Part shown: piece by piece, positions 118 through 5,209 of the stretch
How the letters are laid out: the number at the start of each line of letters is the position of its first letter
How positions within the stretch are numbered: the stretch's first letter is position 1
Assembly: GCA_012270665.1 (NCBI GenBank)
Contig: JAAXHY010000071.1
Location: 1-5,209 of the forward strand
Length of the DNA stretch: 5,209 bases
Direction of reading: 5' to 3'
DNA from: Dehalococcoidia bacterium
GTDB taxonomy: Bacteria; Chloroflexota; Dehalococcoidia; SAR202; UBA11138
Position numbers and translations under genes: made by a program
The notes under the pieces: generated by a model
What the model saw: only the letters and a program-made list of their open reading frames with translations
Told to the model about the DNA's origin: nothing
Databases searched by the model: none

Positions 118-1119
118 CTACGCCAAAGACTCCAGCGCCGCCAGTCTCTCCTTCGACTCTTCGATGCGTCTGCGGACTATCCGCGCCAGTCGCCGGGAGT
201 CATCCCTGTATGTGACGTCCGTATTCGCCTCCACCTTGGCGACCCACTCGGATGGTAGCCCGGACGCCCCGTGCAGCGCGCCCGCTACGCCCCCGACCAT
301 CGTGGCGATTGTGTCGGCGTCTCTCCCAAAATTGGCGCCCCACGTTATCGCGCGCGCTGGGTCGCCCTCGGCTAGGGTCAGTATCGCTAGGGTCGCGGGG
401 ATAGTCTCCATCGAGTCCGCCAGCACGGTCCGCTGGAACCGTTCGTAGAAACTCTCGCGGAACAGTTCGTATGAGCCGCTCTCGGCAGCCAGGTCCAAGG
501 CCGCGGCGATGGTCTGCTTGATCTCCGCGGCGCTCACGGGCAGCAGATACCGGGTAGCGGCATATACTACGCTCTCCACAGTCGCGTTTGCGTCGAAGGC
601 CGCCGCCACCGACGCTGCCATAGCGCAGGCCGCGTCGCGGCAATACCCCGAGGCCCCGTTGTGGATGAACGATGCCACGTCCATCGTCTCCAGCTCCGCC
701 TGGCGAGGATCGCAGGCGTTGATTATTCCCATCGGAGATATGGCCATGGCGGTCGAGGAACTCTGCATATTCCCCCATCCCGCGTAGGCCGGCAGCTCCA
801 CTCCCTGGTCGAACTTGTGGAAAGCGTTCCGCACCGGAATGAACCACAGATGCCGGTTCTGGTCCCTGAAGTCCTTGAACGACTGTGCGAAGTGGTCCAC
901 CGTCGGATGACCGTCGCTCTTGAATATGGCGTCTATCAACTGGCCCCTGATAGCTGTGTCGTCGGTGCCGACCCCCTCGAAGTCGGTAACGCCCTCGGGT
1001 CCAAACTCTTCGATGATCTGCCTGTAATGCATTCCCTCAGTGGGCGCGCCCATTGCGTCGCCAATGAGACCTCCCAGAAGGCATCCGTATATCTTGTCGG
1101 TCAGTCTGTCCGCAGCCAA
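118..1119 (-). CDS. ADP-ribosylglycohydrolase family protein (DraG/ARH-like)
   Basis: Predicted 333-residue soluble cytoplasmic enzyme of the ADP-ribosyl-glycohydrolase fold, a family that removes ADP-ribose from modified proteins or related small molecules using two Mg ions. Counted from the TTG at 1119, the metal-site motifs are all present: GDAMGAPTEG (about 20-29), TDDTA (52-56) and GRDADTIA (265-272), the last followed by the usual glycine-rich GGVAGALHG helix. The central WGNMQSSSTAMAISPMG (115-131) and the HNGASGYCRDAACAMAA stretch (153-169) match the family's substrate-loop regions. Length is normal and nothing is truncated. I prefer the TTG at 1119 because GGAGGGG lies 7 nt upstream and family members usually start shortly before the GDAxG motif; an in-frame TTG at 1161 would add 14 residues that look unlike the family. 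The gene lies 68 bp downstream of the GMC oxidoreductase gene, probably cotranscribed. The real substrate is unknown: many bacterial members do not act on dinitrogenase reductase, so draG should not be assigned. Confidence 0.93.
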   Translation of the reverse strand: MAADRLTDKIYGCLLGGLIGDAMGAPTEGMHYRQIIEEFGPEGVTDFEGVGTDDTAIRGQLIDAIFKSDGHPTVDHFAQSFKDFRDQNRHLWFIPVRNAFHKFDQGVELPAYAGWGNMQSSSTAMAISPMGIINACDPRQAELETMDVASFIHNGASGYCRDAACAMAASVAAAFDANATVESVVYAATRYLLPVSAAEIKQTIAAALDLAAESGSYELFRESFYERFQRTVLADSMETIPATLAILTLAEGDPARAITWGANFGRDADTIATMVGGVAGALHGASGLPSEWVAKVEANTDVTYRDDSRRLARIVRRRIEESKERLAALESLA

Positions 1120-1126
1120 TTCGATA

Positions 1127-1133
1127 CCCCTCC
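1127..1133 (-). promoter_or_regulatory. Ribosome binding site selecting the TTG start of the ADP-ribosylglycohydrolase gene
   Basis: On the - strand the sequence reads TGGAGGGGTATCGAATTG. GGAGGGG sits 7 nt before the TTG at 1119-1117. The alternative TTG at 1161 has only a short GGAG placed very close (4 nt), so the downstream start is favoured. Confidence 0.6.
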
Positions 1134-1187
1134 AACTTCTAAGATTAACGCGGTGACGCAAAGGTCTCCGTCAGGGGATACCGATCT

Positions 1188-2753
1188 TCACTTTCCCTGC
1201 TTGATGAAGTCCGCGACCCGCTCGCCCATCATCAGGACGGTGACGTTGATGTTGGCCCGGACGCACTCCGGCATGATCGAGGCGTCCGCGACCCGCAGAC
1301 CATCCGCCCCATAGACCTTGCCGTACTGGTCCACCACGGCCATTGGGTCCGAACTGGGCCCCATCTTCGCGGTGCAGGATATGTGATGTCCGGTCCCTAC
1401 GTACCTCTTCATCCACATATCCAGTGCCTCGTCCGATTCAAGGTCAGAGTCCTCGGGATAGACCCTCTTGTCTATCATGGCGGCCATCGCCGGATGTTCC
1501 TCCAGGCCGACTATCAGCCGGACGCCGTCTCGATACCTGCGCAGGTCCTCCTCGTGGTCAAGAAGGTTGTAGTCAAGGTAGGGATAGTCCCTGTAGTCAT
1601 TGGATCGGAGCCGAAGTTCGCCCTTGGACAGCGCCAGGTTCAGCCCGAGTCCGGCGCCCAGTCCCACCAGGTCGCCGTGCTGGCCGCCCATTTTGCGTAT
1701 CTTGCCGGATGCCGCCGACAGGTAAACGATCATGTCGTTATCCATAGAAGAACCCTCCGCGGTGTACCTCACCAGTAGCTGCCCGTTGGGCACGAAGCGT
1801 TTCAGTTCCACCTCCGGCCTGGTCGCCCACAGAATCATGAGGAGAGGGTGGTCTGCCAAATTCTGGCCGACGCCCGGTGAATCTATGACGGTCTCGATTC
1901 CGTGTTCTCCCAGGTGATCGGCTGGGCCCACACCCGAGAGCATGAGTATCTGGGGCGACCCGATGGCGCCCGCGCTGAGGATTATCTCCTCCGCCTCGAC
2001 GACGAAGGTCTCGTCGTCTGAGACCGCCTCCACGCCGGTCGCCCTGGGACGTTCCCCTCTGGTGTCGAACAATATTCTCTTGACCGTCACGTTGGCCCTG
2101 ATGGTCAGGTTGAGCCGGTGGCGCGAGAGGCCGAGGTATCCTATGGACGTGGACCAGCGTATGCCCTCTGGATTGTTCAGCGGTATTGGCCCCACTCCGG
2201 CGGTGCCGGGTGCGTTGTGGTCCTCGCAGTGCGGATGCCCACTGTCTCGCCACGCCTCGAACCAGGCGTTGTTCCCCTCCTGCCACTCCTCCTGCGGGAA
2301 CCGGTGACAGATGATGGGTCCGCTCGAGCCATGAAAATCTCCGGGATCGTCCTGGTAGGTGGTGTCCGTCTCCACCATGTTGAAGTAAGGTACCAGCTTC
2401 TGGAAGCCCCACTCGTCGTTCCCCCACTTCGCCCAGTCGTCATAGTCCTCCGGAATGCCGCGCAGGAAGACCTGCCCGTTGATCGCGCTCGACCCGCCGG
2501 TCACCTTGCCCCTGGGAATCTCGATCTCCGCCTTGTCGGTGCCCCTGGCCGTGTACTGCCAGTTGTGGTCACTATCCCAGATGGGCTTGGTGGACTTGTA
2601 GCCGTACTTGACCTCCTCCGGCAGGCCGTCTATGTCCGGGTAGTCCGGGCCCGCCTCCAGCAGGAGCACAGAGGTGTTGGGGTCTTCCGAAAGCCTCGTG
2701 GCGAGGATCGCGCCCGCCGACCCCGCTCCAATCACGATGTAGTCGTACTTCAC
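1188..2753 (-). CDS. GMC-family FAD-dependent oxidoreductase (choline/alcohol dehydrogenase-like)
   Basis: A 521-residue flavoprotein of the glucose-methanol-choline family, which oxidises an alcohol to an aldehyde or ketone using FAD. Visible elements are the FAD dinucleotide fold at the N-terminus (YIVIGAGSAGAILATRL, 5-21, with LLEAG at 31-35); GMC signature 1 (RGKVTGGSSAINGQVFLRG, 81-99); GMC signature 2 (SAGAIGSPQILMLSGVG, 260-276); and the C-terminal active site. His457 in TGHHISCTAKMG is the expected catalytic base, and the NIN of ANINVTVLMMGERVAD (501-503) supplies the Asn at the second catalytic position. There is no signal peptide, so it should be cytoplasmic. The start is GTG with AGGAGG 6 nt upstream (2760-2765), and the FAD motif begins at residue 5, which fixes the start well. 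Length is typical. The substrate cannot be deduced from the sequence. It is the first gene of a likely two-gene unit with the ADP-ribosylglycohydrolase and has its own promoter at 2794-2822. Confidence 0.95.
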   Translation of the reverse strand: MKYDYIVIGAGSAGAILATRLSEDPNTSVLLLEAGPDYPDIDGLPEEVKYGYKSTKPIWDSDHNWQYTARGTDKAEIEIPRGKVTGGSSAINGQVFLRGIPEDYDDWAKWGNDEWGFQKLVPYFNMVETDTTYQDDPGDFHGSSGPIICHRFPQEEWQEGNNAWFEAWRDSGHPHCEDHNAPGTAGVGPIPLNNPEGIRWSTSIGYLGLSRHRLNLTIRANVTVKRILFDTRGERPRATGVEAVSDDETFVVEAEEIILSAGAIGSPQILMLSGVGPADHLGEHGIETVIDSPGVGQNLADHPLLMILWATRPEVELKRFVPNGQLLVRYTAEGSSMDNDMIVYLSAASGKIRKMGGQHGDLVGLGAGLGLNLALSKGELRLRSNDYRDYPYLDYNLLDHEEDLRRYRDGVRLIVGLEEHPAMAAMIDKRVYPEDSDLESDEALDMWMKRYVGTGHHISCTAKMGPSSDPMAVVDQYGKVYGADGLRVADASIMPECVRANINVTVLMMGERVADFIKQGK

Positions 2754-2793
2754 TCCCTACCTCCTGGACATGACGTTGATATGATACCGCTGG

Positions 2794-2822
2794 ATAGTAC
2801 GCACTGGAACATGGAACGTCAA
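2794..2822 (-). promoter_or_regulatory. Predicted sigma70-type promoter of the GMC oxidoreductase gene
   Basis: On the - strand, TTGACG (2822-2817), a 17-bp spacer and TACTAT (2799-2794) match the -35 and -10 consensus 5/6 and 4/6 with optimal spacing. Transcription would begin near 2787 and leave a leader of about 34 nt before the GTG at 2753. The -35 box lies 18 bp from the left end of the repeat-bracketed unit, so that insertion would have replaced whatever lay upstream of the promoter. This is a pattern call only. Confidence 0.55.
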
Positions 2823-2831
2823 TGCCCGCAG

Positions 2832-2840
2832 CCGGTCGTA
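2832..2840 (+). repeat. Left copy of a 9-bp direct repeat, possible target-site duplication
   Basis: CCGGTCGTA directly abuts the left end of repeat copy A. It matches CCAGTCGTA, which directly abuts the right end of copy B, at 8 of 9 positions and in the same orientation. Because copies A and B are inverted, shared repeat sequence would have given an inverted rather than a direct match here. Confidence 0.5.
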
Positions 2841-2988
2841 TAGGGCCTGTGAAAGATCGGCATTATTGAAACTTCGTCAGCAACCACACACTGGATTGCC
2901 AAGCGGCGAGCCCTTCGGGGTTCCCGCTTTCGCAGGAATGGCGGGAGAAATAAGCGGGTGTGCGAATCGAAACTTTGCGCAAGCCCTG
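2841..2988 (+). repeat. 148-bp MITE-like repeat, copy A
   Basis: Aligns without gaps to the reverse complement of 5015-5162. The first 99 bp or so (starting TAGGGCC, containing AAGATCGGCATTATTG and ACTGGATTGCC) show about 15 differences. The last part (AATCGA..CTTTGCGCAAGCCCTG) is also well kept, and about 24 bp near 2941-2963 are dissimilar. The two ends are imperfect inverted repeats of each other (TAGGGCCTGTGAAAG against CAGGGCTTGCGCAAAG). The core holds two small hairpins, CCC-TTC-GGG (2911-2919) and TTCCCGC-TTTC-GCAGGAA (2921-2938, one mismatch). The latter resembles the ATTCCCGC..GCGGGAAT palindromes common between genes in many bacteria. It contains no ORF of its own. Confidence 0.8.
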
Positions 2989-3021
2989 CAAAAGTGGGTA
3001 CGCGTTAGCTCATATTGGCCA

Positions 3022-3050
3022 TTGACAGCATAACATGCCTAACATAAAAT
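3022..3050 (+). promoter_or_regulatory. Predicted sigma70-type promoter of the FN3 protein gene
   Basis: TTGACA (3022-3027), a 17-bp spacer and TAAAAT (3045-3050) are a perfect -35 box and a 5/6 -10 box at optimal spacing. Initiation near 3057 would give a leader of about 35 nt to the ATG at 3092. It lies between repeat copy A and the gene, so the cassette carries its own promoter. The ATG at 3035 falls inside the promoter spacer and could not be in this transcript. Confidence 0.65.
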
Positions 3051-3074
3051 GCCGCTCGCGCAACCACACCACAC

Positions 3075-3080
3075 GAGGAG
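3075..3080 (+). promoter_or_regulatory. Ribosome binding site selecting the ATG at 3092
   Basis: GAGGAG is followed by 11 nt to the ATG at 3092. The spacing is somewhat long, but there is no comparable site before the upstream in-frame ATG at 3035. Confidence 0.5.
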
Positions 3081-3091
3081 ATTTTACTCAA

Positions 3092-4588
3092 ATGATATCA
3101 ATCTCGAAGAAATTCTATGAACAGGTTGCTGGCCGCCGCCGCCGATCTTTTATTCTGGGAACAGGCTTATCAGCGCTCCTTGCCCTTGCGATGATATTCA
3201 GCGCAACTTCCTCCGCTCGCGCTGGTGGTAACGGAGGGATCGAAACTACATACGGAGACGGAGAGATAAGCGTATCCTGGATAGATGATGACGCAGCTTC
3301 ACATACGGGTTACGTTGTTCAGTGGCGTCTGTCCGATACTGATTTCGATCCAGCCATATCGGATATGGAACTTGATTCCGGTTGGTGGGATTTCAACGGT
3401 GTCAAGGTCTTGAGTCGGTGGGGAAGTGGACGTTATGCCGAAGTGTACAGTAATGGCGGGTCATACTCAGCCACAGTCTGGCTATCTGATGGTGTCGTAG
3501 AAAGAAGTCCAAACTATGACCAATTGCTCTACGCCCAACTGTGGGCGCAGAACGCCATAAGGGACCACTACGGGGACATTTGGTTGTATGCCAGATTGGA
3601 GTACGTAGAAACCTCTTGGTACACGATAACCGGACTAACCAACGAAAATACCTACTTGGGTCGAGTTCGCGCGGCGTATGGCAGATATCAAGACGGAACA
3701 ATTCTGTATGACAATGTAATCGGCGGATTCACCATCATGATGCCTCCTGTGGATCTCCTCGAGAGTCCATACGACCTCACGATCACGCCCGGGAATGGAA
3801 AGTTCGATGTATCCCTGACAGACCCTCACTCAGCCTCACGCATCCACGGATACTATGTGCGGTGGCGTGAGGGTACTGATTTCGACCCGGCCGCATCGGT
3901 TATGGAACTCGACTCCGGTTGGTGGGATCTCAACGGTGTCAAGATCTTGAGTTGGTGGGGAAGCGGACGTTATGCCGAAGTGTACAGTAGTGGCGGGTCA
4001 TACTCAGCCACAGTCTGGCTATCTGATGGTGTCGTCGAAAGAAGTCCAAACTATGATCAATTGCGCTACGCTCAACTGTGGGCGCAGAACGCCATAAGGG
4101 ACTACTATCATGAACCTTGGCTCTATTCCAAGGTAGTATGGGTCCTACAACCTTCGTACACGATAACCGGGCTAACCAACAAATATTACTACACAGTTCA
4201 AATGTATGCCAATGATGGTCCGTCCTATGATGCAGTCAACCCCATGACTACCGCCCAGCCGTCTGTACCGCCATCTACACCGAGTACACACACGCTTAGC
4301 TATAGAGCCTCAGAGATAGGTATCTCTTGGTATGTGCCCTACGACAACGGGACGCCCATCCACGAATACATCGTGCAGTGGGAAGAAGACAAGGACAGTG
4401 GCCAGTGGCTCAATCCGATTGAGGATACTGTGCCTGGAGATCAAAACTCCTACACTATGACTGGATTGGTTGAGGGCGTAACTTACGTCTTTCGTGTGAG
4501 GGCCGTTAATGTGCTCGGAGCGCCGGGTGGGTGGTCCATAACCGAACATCTGAGCTTAAGTGATCTAGATGATCTGATCCCAGAATGA
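3092..4588 (+). CDS. Secreted protein with three fibronectin type III domains, two carrying a duplicated insert
   Basis: A 498-residue exported protein. The n-region (MISISKKFYEQVAGRRRRS), a hydrophobic stretch (FILGTGLSALLALAMIFSAT, 20-39) and a SARA cleavage site suggest cleavage after Ala44. RRSFI fits the twin-arginine pattern, so Tat export is possible though Sec is not excluded. The mature part has three FN3 domains, about 48-215, 226-388 and 391-488, shown by YVVQWR / YYVRWR / YIVQWE strands and YTITGLTN / YTITGLTN / YTMTGLVEGVTYVFRVRAVN segments. Domains 1 and 2 carry an extra 75-80 residues between the W-R strand and the YTITGL strand (about 91-171 and 270-350), rich in Trp and Tyr and nearly identical to each other. 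Domain 3 lacks the insert and looks canonical. The tail is short and acidic (LSDLDDLIPE). No enzyme motif, sortase signal or membrane anchor is visible. FN3 domains usually bind surfaces or partner proteins; the specific role is unknown. The start at 3092 is favoured by promoter, GAGGAG and signal-peptide position. An ATG at 3035 would add 19 residues but lies inside the promoter. Codon use is less GC-rich than in the - strand genes. It is the only convincing gene between the inverted repeats. Confidence 0.88.
   Translation: MISISKKFYEQVAGRRRRSFILGTGLSALLALAMIFSATSSARAGGNGGIETTYGDGEISVSWIDDDAASHTGYVVQWRLSDTDFDPAISDMELDSGWWDFNGVKVLSRWGSGRYAEVYSNGGSYSATVWLSDGVVERSPNYDQLLYAQLWAQNAIRDHYGDIWLYARLEYVETSWYTITGLTNENTYLGRVRAAYGRYQDGTILYDNVIGGFTIMMPPVDLLESPYDLTITPGNGKFDVSLTDPHSASRIHGYYVRWREGTDFDPAASVMELDSGWWDLNGVKILSWWGSGRYAEVYSSGGSYSATVWLSDGVVERSPNYDQLRYAQLWAQNAIRDYYHEPWLYSKVVWVLQPSYTITGLTNKYYYTVQMYANDGPSYDAVNPMTTAQPSVPPSTPSTHTLSYRASEIGISWYVPYDNGTPIHEYIVQWEEDKDSGQWLNPIEDTVPGDQNSYTMTGLVEGVTYVFRVRAVNVLGAPGGWSITEHLSLSDLDDLIPE
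3337..3571 (+). repeat. Intragenic duplicated segment, copy 1 (insert of FN3 domain 1)
   Basis: Matches 3874-4108 without gaps at a fixed offset of 537 bp (179 codons), with about 18 mismatches over 235 bp (about 92% identity). It encodes TDFDPA, MELDSGWWDFNGVK, GSGRYAEVYSNGG and WLSDGVVERSPNYDQ through to AQLWAQNAIRDHY. Identity falls sharply on both sides, although FN3 homology and the same frame continue. Confidence 0.9.
3874..4108 (+). repeat. Intragenic duplicated segment, copy 2 (insert of FN3 domain 2)
   Basis: Second copy of the segment at 3337-3571. From the MELDSGWW codons to the end (69 codons) I count 13 base differences, 7 silent and 6 replacing a residue (F/L, V/I, R/W, N/S, L/R, H/Y). 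Part of an internal tandem duplication with a 179-codon period. Confidence 0.9.
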
Positions 4589-5014
4589 GTCTCTCACATT
4601 CTTGCTTCCTGCAACGGGGTCCGACGAGTGTCGTAGTTGTGGATGGCGTGGAGAGCGAACGGCATAGGCGGGAACCTCGGTATCAGCAGAGGGGCGTCTG
4701 TAACGTGGACGGGGGCGCTGAGCGCGAATGATGAGCCCGCCACCGTTGCGGCGATGGCTTTGCCTGTCTGGTCTCTAGCCGCGAACGTGGTAACGGCGGT
4801 TATCGCGATGTGTGTCAGCAGATGCATGGCCGCATACAAGACCGGAATCGGAATAAACCCGTCAATCGCGGCGACGGCCACGAGTGAAGTGACGCCTGGG
4901 GCCGAACCCTGACGCCTCGCTCATTTGGAAGTCGTTGACGAGGCACTCCGCGTCACCGGCCGGTAGATTACGGGAAACTGCTCGGCATGGTCTATCGCGC
5001 CGAACACATATCCT
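4589..5014. other. Stretch of about 430 bp inside the cassette without a convincing gene
   Basis: Between the FN3 stop codon and repeat copy B. Opposed open frames overlap here: - strand 4594-4881 (95 codons, mildly hydrophobic, Ala/Thr/Pro-rich) and + strand 4637-4912 (91 codons), plus the - strand frame 4862-5137 that runs into copy B. None has a clear Shine-Dalgarno, a recognisable domain or a family I know, and the + and - frames mirror each other over the same bases. The region is more GC-rich than the FN3 gene. It could be a decayed gene, most plausibly on the - strand, where the frames ending at 4862 and beginning at 4881 adjoin in different phases as a frameshift would leave them. It could equally be non-coding. 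I see no terminator hairpin after the FN3 gene. Confidence 0.4.
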
Positions 5015-5162
5015 CAGGGCTTGCGCAAAGGCTCGATTCCGCGACTCATAGCCACATATTGTCATTCCCGTGAAAGCGAGAACTCCGAAGGGCTCGCCGC
5101 TCGGCAATCCAGTGTCTAGTTGCTGGCGAAATCCCAATAATGCCGATCTTGCGCGGGCCCTG
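5015..5162 (-). repeat. 148-bp MITE-like repeat, copy B (inverted relative to copy A)
   Basis: The reverse complement aligns end to end with 2841-2988. This copy has the better preserved termini: CAGGGCTTGCGCAAAG at 5015-5030 and, on the other strand, CAGGGCCCGCGCAAGA reading inward from 5162, which agree at 12 of 16 positions. The conserved core includes ATTCCCGTGAAAGCGAGAA, the ATTCCCGC-type hairpin in degenerate form, and CCGAAGGGCTCGCCGC. No ORF lies within it. Confidence 0.8.
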
Positions 5163-5171
5163 CCAGTCGTA
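5163..5171 (+). repeat. Right copy of the 9-bp direct repeat, possible target-site duplication
   Basis: CCAGTCGTA begins at the first base after repeat copy B and matches CCGGTCGTA at 2832-2840 with one transition difference. Confidence 0.5.
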
Positions 5172-5182
5172 TTACTCCCTAG

Positions 5183-5196
5183 CGCAAACCCTTGCG
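5183..5196. repeat. Small hairpin resembling the cassette termini
   Basis: CGCAA-ACCC-TTGCG is a perfect 5-bp stem with a 4-nt loop. Read on the - strand, the surrounding AAGGGTTTGCGCTA resembles the repeat end CAGGGCTTGCGCAA at 11 of 14 positions. It may be the edge of another member of the same repeat family continuing beyond the window. Confidence 0.25.
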
Positions 5197-5209
5197 GTTG
5201 CCCTTAGCC

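Follow-up and report, generated by a model that had tools for sequence, protein, structure and literature searches.

The 2322-bp segment at positions 2841-5162 of the 5,209-nucleotide stretch of SAR202-like Chloroflexota DNA analysed here (the window) is probably a composite, non-autonomous transposon made up of two MITEs and moved by a transposase acting in trans. Two related, diverged MITEs with ISAs1-type terminal repeats would have come to flank a gene for an FN3 protein, and a transposase from another source in the cell, presumably of that same family, would then have acted on the two outer ends and not on both ends of one MITE. The whole segment appears to have been inserted upstream of a GMC oxidoreductase gene with duplication of a 9 bp target, as supported by an 8/9 match at its outer boundaries and the absence of repeats at the inner ones. 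Having a promoter-like site of its own and a probable secretion signal, the cargo gene could work wherever it lands. What this reading chiefly lacks is an empty site and a second unit.

Structure of the unit and its outer duplication

A repeat search of the window returned two pairs of inverted arms, one of 99 nt at 86% identity (2842-2940/5063-5161) and one of 25 nt at 92% (2964-2988/5015-5039). End-to-end alignment of these arms gives two 148-bp copies in opposite orientation, at 2841-2988 on the plus strand and 5015-5162 on the minus strand, which enclose a single cargo gene, as the original prediction had it. The left copy has the outer terminus TAGGGCCTGTGAAAG, with two mismatches to the family pattern, and the inner terminus CAGGGCTTGCGCAAAG; the right copy has CAGGGCTTGCGCAAAG at its inner and CAGGGCCCGCGCAAG at its outer end. 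Since CAGGGC-type terminal repeats are thus present at both ends of each copy, each is a complete MITE. Their mutual identity is only about 76%, too low for one to have arisen from the other by a recent duplication.

The predicted near-perfect direct repeat at the exact outer boundaries was likewise recovered. The nonamers CCGGTCGTA (2832-2840) and CCAGTCGTA (5163-5171), both read on the plus strand, directly adjoin the left and right outer ends and agree imperfectly, at 8/9 positions. When duplication lengths of 5-14 were tried at the outer ends, only 9 gave a match, all other lengths having at most five matching bases, and the inner ends of the two copies are without duplication (1/9 and 2/9 flank matches). 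As a control, the plus strand of the window holds three nonamers within one mismatch (8/9) of CCGGTCGTA, counting itself and its partner, which leaves one extra by chance. No transposase family was detected in the six ORFs scanned, four of which lie wholly or partly within the unit, namely three small ORFs besides the FN3 ORF. The segment therefore has the features of a MITE-bounded composite: two complete copies at its ends, a direct repeat around the whole and none inside, and no transposase gene among the ORFs scanned.

A very unlikely origin of this arrangement is recombination or misassembly, either as an inversion between inverted MITEs or as a joining of unrelated pieces at the repeats. 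Inverted repeats do permit inversion, and the right flank is short, the window ending 47 bp past the unit. However, after an inversion each inner flank should be the reverse complement of the outer flank at the other end, and by eye the inner flanks, CAAAAGTGG and ACATATCCT, show no such match. An 8/9 outer duplication is not what a false join would yield, and at an identity of about 76% the two copies would lend themselves badly to either event.

The MITE family and the likely source of its ends

The two copies belong to a family that is well represented in related genomes. With the left copy as query, matches were found in six of nine genomes. G001 has at least 42, every one of them in a REP-like core some 54 nt long (2891-2944, plus strand, in the left MITE) that is also a dispersed repeat in related genomes, and G002 has at least 40, of which 34 cover this core. 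Across the order, at least three of 250 genomes (G001, G002, and G010) contain a MITE match at 1e-8. Plasmids gave no match to the MITE and viral contigs none to its core, and a search of Rfam was likewise empty. No Y1 or REP-associated transposase was found in G001, G002, or G010, though the REP-like repeat is abundant (at least 42 matches in G001 and at least 34 in G002).

The sample consisted of sixty stretches from G001, G002, and G004 and was not random, since each stretch was chosen for a match or a terminal-repeat hit within it. After removal of duplicates, 34 candidate end pairs lie 90-400 bp apart, all from G001 or G002, and their flanking nonamers agree at 9/9 in eight cases, at 8/9 in ten, at 7/9 in four, and at 6/9 or fewer in 12, a few of these last (at least two) being alternative pairings of an otherwise paired end. 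A match of 8/9 or better was thus seen in 18 of the 34 pairs, vs. 1 of 1122 cross-element comparisons (at 8/9, with none at 9/9). Long-core single copies are among those with duplications (L043, 148 bp, 9/9; L032, 146 bp, 8/9), as is L127 (148 bp, 9/9), which falls outside the 34 pairs owing to an end with four mismatches; L038 (148 bp) matches at only 6/9. The target duplication of this MITE family is 9 bp long, and because family copies duplicate 9 bp, the 8/9 match around the window unit is most likely a transposition scar. The window is also the only duplication-bearing case among eight end pairs more than 400 bp apart. Given the outer repeat, the lack of inner repeats, and the 9-bp duplications of the family, transposition of the whole unit through its outer ends is most likely.

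The same data bear on a further possibility, namely that two independent MITE insertions flank an ordinary accessory FN3 gene, with an outer match due to chance and inner duplications that have decayed. The divergence of the window copies (76%) and the numerous family members in relatives speak for it, and the 12 of 34 pairs at 6/9 or fewer indicate that copies lacking a recognisable duplication are not unusual, though at least two of the 12 are alternative pairings. Against this, both inner duplications must have been lost, and an 8/9 outer match must have arisen by chance at exactly the family length, for which the probability is about 1e-4 with random nonamers and 1/1122 in the cross-element null. 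This explanation is accordingly judged unlikely.

Family members also occur at 319 and at 341-345 bp, and their interiors vary. The 319-bp class in G002 (L061, L063, L064, L108, and L120) has the same ends and 8/9-9/9 duplications, and L063, the only 319-bp copy printed in full, is without the REP core. Such differing interiors, together with the identical outer structure to be expected, would suit another reading, in which the unit is not a composite and is instead one formerly autonomous transposon that has decayed, its arms being 148-bp terminal inverted repeats and the FN3 gene having taken the place of its transposase gene. This is nonetheless highly improbable, as each 148-bp arm has an inner CAGGGC terminus of its own, and stand-alone elements that equal the arms in length and core occur in relatives with their own duplications.

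A REP-type hairpin is located near the center of all 21 aligned single MITEs (111-148 bp), in a short 23-nt form (L066, L073, and others) or a long 48-nt form. The long form is found in four of the 21 (L032, L038, L043, and L127) and in both window copies (2891-2944 and 5061-5112). On a tree of the remainder of the element the form switches five times, with at least four switches forced by well-supported branches, and its clustering is not above that of shuffled labels. L038, with the long form, and L073, with the short one, are 93% alike outside the hairpin. These patterns suggest that the hairpin has been exchanged repeatedly, perhaps with dispersed REPs as partner. In single-strand folding, the window copies are no stabler than shuffles (z -0.67 and -0.94); a relative's copy, L031, is stabler (z -4.1). 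By eye, the right flank of the unit (5172-5209) looks on the minus strand like the beginning of a further palindromic repeat (GGGCAACCGCAAGGGTTTGCGC); the insertion may thus have taken place next to a REP.

Pieces of ISAs1 transposase (NF033564) were detected in five of six genomes, above cut-off in three. The ends of 12 ISAs1 loci were inspected: six have terminal repeats (L081, L088, L090, L094, L095, and L097) and six lack them. Duplications of 10 bp, each at 9/10, are present at L090 (1227 bp) and at L097 (1291 bp) and absent from the other four with terminal repeats. The ends of the G004 element L090 read CAGGGCCTTTTCATTTTC and those of L095, which has no such duplication, CAGGACGATTGCAAAGTC; the MITE L073 of G001 has the ends CAGGGCCTTTTCAAAGTT and CAGGGCCTTTGCAAAGTC. 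The MITE start (CAGGGC) and tail (GCAAAGTC) are each common to different G004 ISAs1 elements, and the ends match at 14-15 of 18 positions by eye, with partial matches to L090, L095, and L097. The autonomous full-length element with a transposase that the original prediction had proposed to look for was not encountered in the relatives: none of the 12 loci has ends identical to those of the MITE (CAGGGCYTKYGCAAAGTC). G001, G002, and G010 yielded only partial or stop-interrupted ISAs1 pieces, and in the family of G001, to whose eight genomes G004 does not belong, such pieces occur in four. Only G002 is above cut-off there, its two copies being one partial and one interrupted by a stop. ISAs1-type elements produce target duplications of 8-10 bp, a range that includes both the 9 bp of the MITEs and the 10 bp of L090 and L097. 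With start and tail shared with different ISAs1 elements and no identical end found, ISAs1 can be put forward only as the likely source of the MITE ends and of the transposase.

The cargo gene and its locus

The cargo gene (3092-4588, plus strand) encodes a presumed secreted protein of 498 aa and is, as predicted, compositionally distinct, with a GC content of 51.0% and a GC3 of 53.5% vs. a GC3 of 76.4% and 81.4% in the two neighboring genes. It is preceded by an AGGAG ribosome site at about 3076-3080, noted by eye, and the proposal that it has its own promoter agrees with a TTGACA-17-TAAAAT site at 3022-3050 on the plus strand, within the cargo and outside the MITE. This is a consensus match only, at 11/12, and the best of five such sites in 2750-5209 (shuffles expect 2.0). 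Downstream, a 426-bp segment (4589-5014) has a GC content of about 60%, and three small ORFs scanned there have no family match.

The N-terminus of the protein combines basic residues, a hydrophobic stretch, and the motif ATSSARA, which by eye makes a secretion signal likely. Pfam recognises one canonical FN3 domain above cut-off (residues 403-477, 3.5e-18) in addition to a marginal related hit. N-terminal to this domain are two copies of a module of about 180 aa, seen in the DNA as a 257-nt stretch that recurs at 89% identity; by eye the modules look like FN3 domains interrupted by an insert of about 85 aa. The description of the protein as multi-FN3 is on the liberal side, since Pfam sees a single canonical domain. 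The insert has conserved WW and WAQNAI motifs and was found, among the matches listed, only in the cargo protein and two relatives, P0001 and P0002.

These two proteins are also the only near-full-length relatives among the matches listed. Searches of a large database returned six and eight matches, with about 8000 candidates scored each time; P0001 (68-69% identity) covers 98% of the cargo protein and P0002 (48-49%) covers 87%, both with the same module arrangement, and the remaining matches cover 24-28%. Both are unplaced and come from contigs of 2.7 and 2.3 kb, respectively. Generic FN3 matches occur in three of four genomes of the genus and three of eight of the family. Among 250 genomes of the order, 28 have matches at 1e-10, and those listed all begin from profile position 345 on, in the C-terminal FN3 part. 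In 393 genomes of the class, a search run without a positive control found no cargo protein at 1e-15. Viral contigs gave no match to the single cargo protein and one weak match to the alignment (L150). A sequence search of solved structures returned, among the best 60 of 150 matches, ordinary FN3 chains that align with the C-terminal portion. An AlphaFold2 model of the cargo was set aside for its low confidence (pLDDT 53, pTM 0.30, 3 sequences).

The host flank consists of the choline-dehydrogenase-like GMC oxidoreductase gene (1188-2753, minus strand), beyond which lies an ADP-ribosylglycohydrolase gene (118-1161, minus strand). Used as query, the GMC protein has counterparts of 79-95% identity at nine loci, on genome contigs titled Dehalococcoidia, SAR202 cluster, or Chloroflexota/Chloroflexi. 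The gene is conserved in these relatives, and the cassette is missing at all nine loci. An FN3 gene at this site in relatives would have spoken against the original prediction and was not seen at any of them; nor do the two window copies carry duplications of their own that would mark them as independently acquired. In the closest relative (L001, 89.8% DNA identity), similarity stops at window position 2830, ten bases short of the left copy, and returns only left of the GMC gene. Because its neighborhood differs beyond 2830 and the 47-bp right flank has no match there, an empty site is not demonstrable in L001. The other eight loci match at the DNA level in the GMC region, L003 also near window position 1. 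A clean empty site with one CCRGTCGTA, the first kind of support that had been proposed, was not found among the nine GMC loci.

The second kind, the same bracketed unit at other loci or with other cargo, was not found in the stretches examined from G001, G002, and G004. The cargo DNA (2989-5014) had no match in 15 related genomes, again in a search without a positive control. Around strong ends, 20 G002 stretches comprise ten with a partner at 7/9 flanks or better, all 111-341 bp away, and ten without. Eighteen unpaired ends (17 distinct, 11 of them in G002, four in G001, and two in G004) have no such partner within 6 kb or the fetched reach; in a random-position control, 8 of 920 gave an 8/9 partner. 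Taken together, the predicted transposase-less, MITE-bounded cassette is borne out as a unit by its outer 9-bp repeat, its lack of inner repeats, and the many MITE copies with 9-bp duplications of their own, and it is left without the joined empty site and the second unit or other cargo that were sought.

Wider meaning and known systems

A broader and unlikely reading is that the cassette belongs to a population of MITE-bounded units that shuttles single secreted FN3-type surface genes within and between sponge-associated Chloroflexota. The occurrence of P0001 and P0002 on contigs of 2.7 and 2.3 kb is what would be expected if this were true and assemblies break at flanking repeats. The published paired-MITE composites found have resistance or plasmid genes of Proteobacteria as cargo; an example from an uncultured Chloroflexota lineage, with another type of end and an apparently secreted cargo protein, would, if true, show that MITEs also move host-interaction-type genes. 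For finding others, the cassette gives a defined end pair and duplication length.

In the open-licence literature searched, no composite of ISAs1-type or Chloroflexota MITEs was found, nor was an ISAs1 composite in the ISAs1 and MITE literature as judged by title and the start of the abstract. A search for SAR202, sponge, and fibronectin found no published work, and the part of one review consulted has nothing on ISAs1 or the cargo (PMC10969869). The original premise that MITE-bounded passenger cassettes are known in principle is correct for TIME-COMP elements and the 439-bp MITEs of Acinetobacter. TIME-COMPs are composites with a Tn3-derived miniature element at either end, in inverted or direct orientation, and have unrelated cargo, no transposase gene, and a target duplication around the whole (PMC4133298, PMC13367494). 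TIME-COMP1 is 2469 bp long, with inverted ends and a GC content lower than that of its plasmid, and it and TIME-COMP2 were caught transposing (PMC4133298); TIME-COMP elements also carry resistance genes (PMC13367494). Like these, the window unit consists of two miniature elements around unrelated cargo, lacks a transposase, and is flanked as a whole by a direct repeat. Unlike their Tn3-type ends and 5-bp duplications, its ends are ISAs1-like, its duplication is 9 bp, its host is a member of the Chloroflexota, its cargo is an FN3 gene, and its transposition is inferred. The unit was not assigned to the TIME/TIME-COMP group, as the window and its relatives have 9-bp instead of 5-bp Tn3-type duplications.

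In Acinetobacter, pairs of 439-bp MITEs around class 1 integrons form a comparable composite-transposon-like unit with a duplication around the whole, and differ in their identical copies, direct orientation, 5-bp duplication, and resistance cargo (PMC3934969). Mobile insertion cassettes, such as the qnrS2 cassette of Aeromonas pAC3, similarly have a passenger gene and transposon-type ends without their own transposase; the qnrS2 cassette has a MITE structure upstream of the gene, whereas here the gene is enclosed by two complete MITEs (PMC5444012). With ISAs1-family insertion sequences (NF033564) the unit shares CAGGGC-type ends, and two G004 elements of that family have 10-bp duplications; it differs from them in having no transposase, only partly matching ends (14-15 of 18, by eye), and a 9-bp duplication. 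The paired-MITE composite arrangement has thus already been published in other bacteria, and it is these ends and the FN3 cargo that look new.
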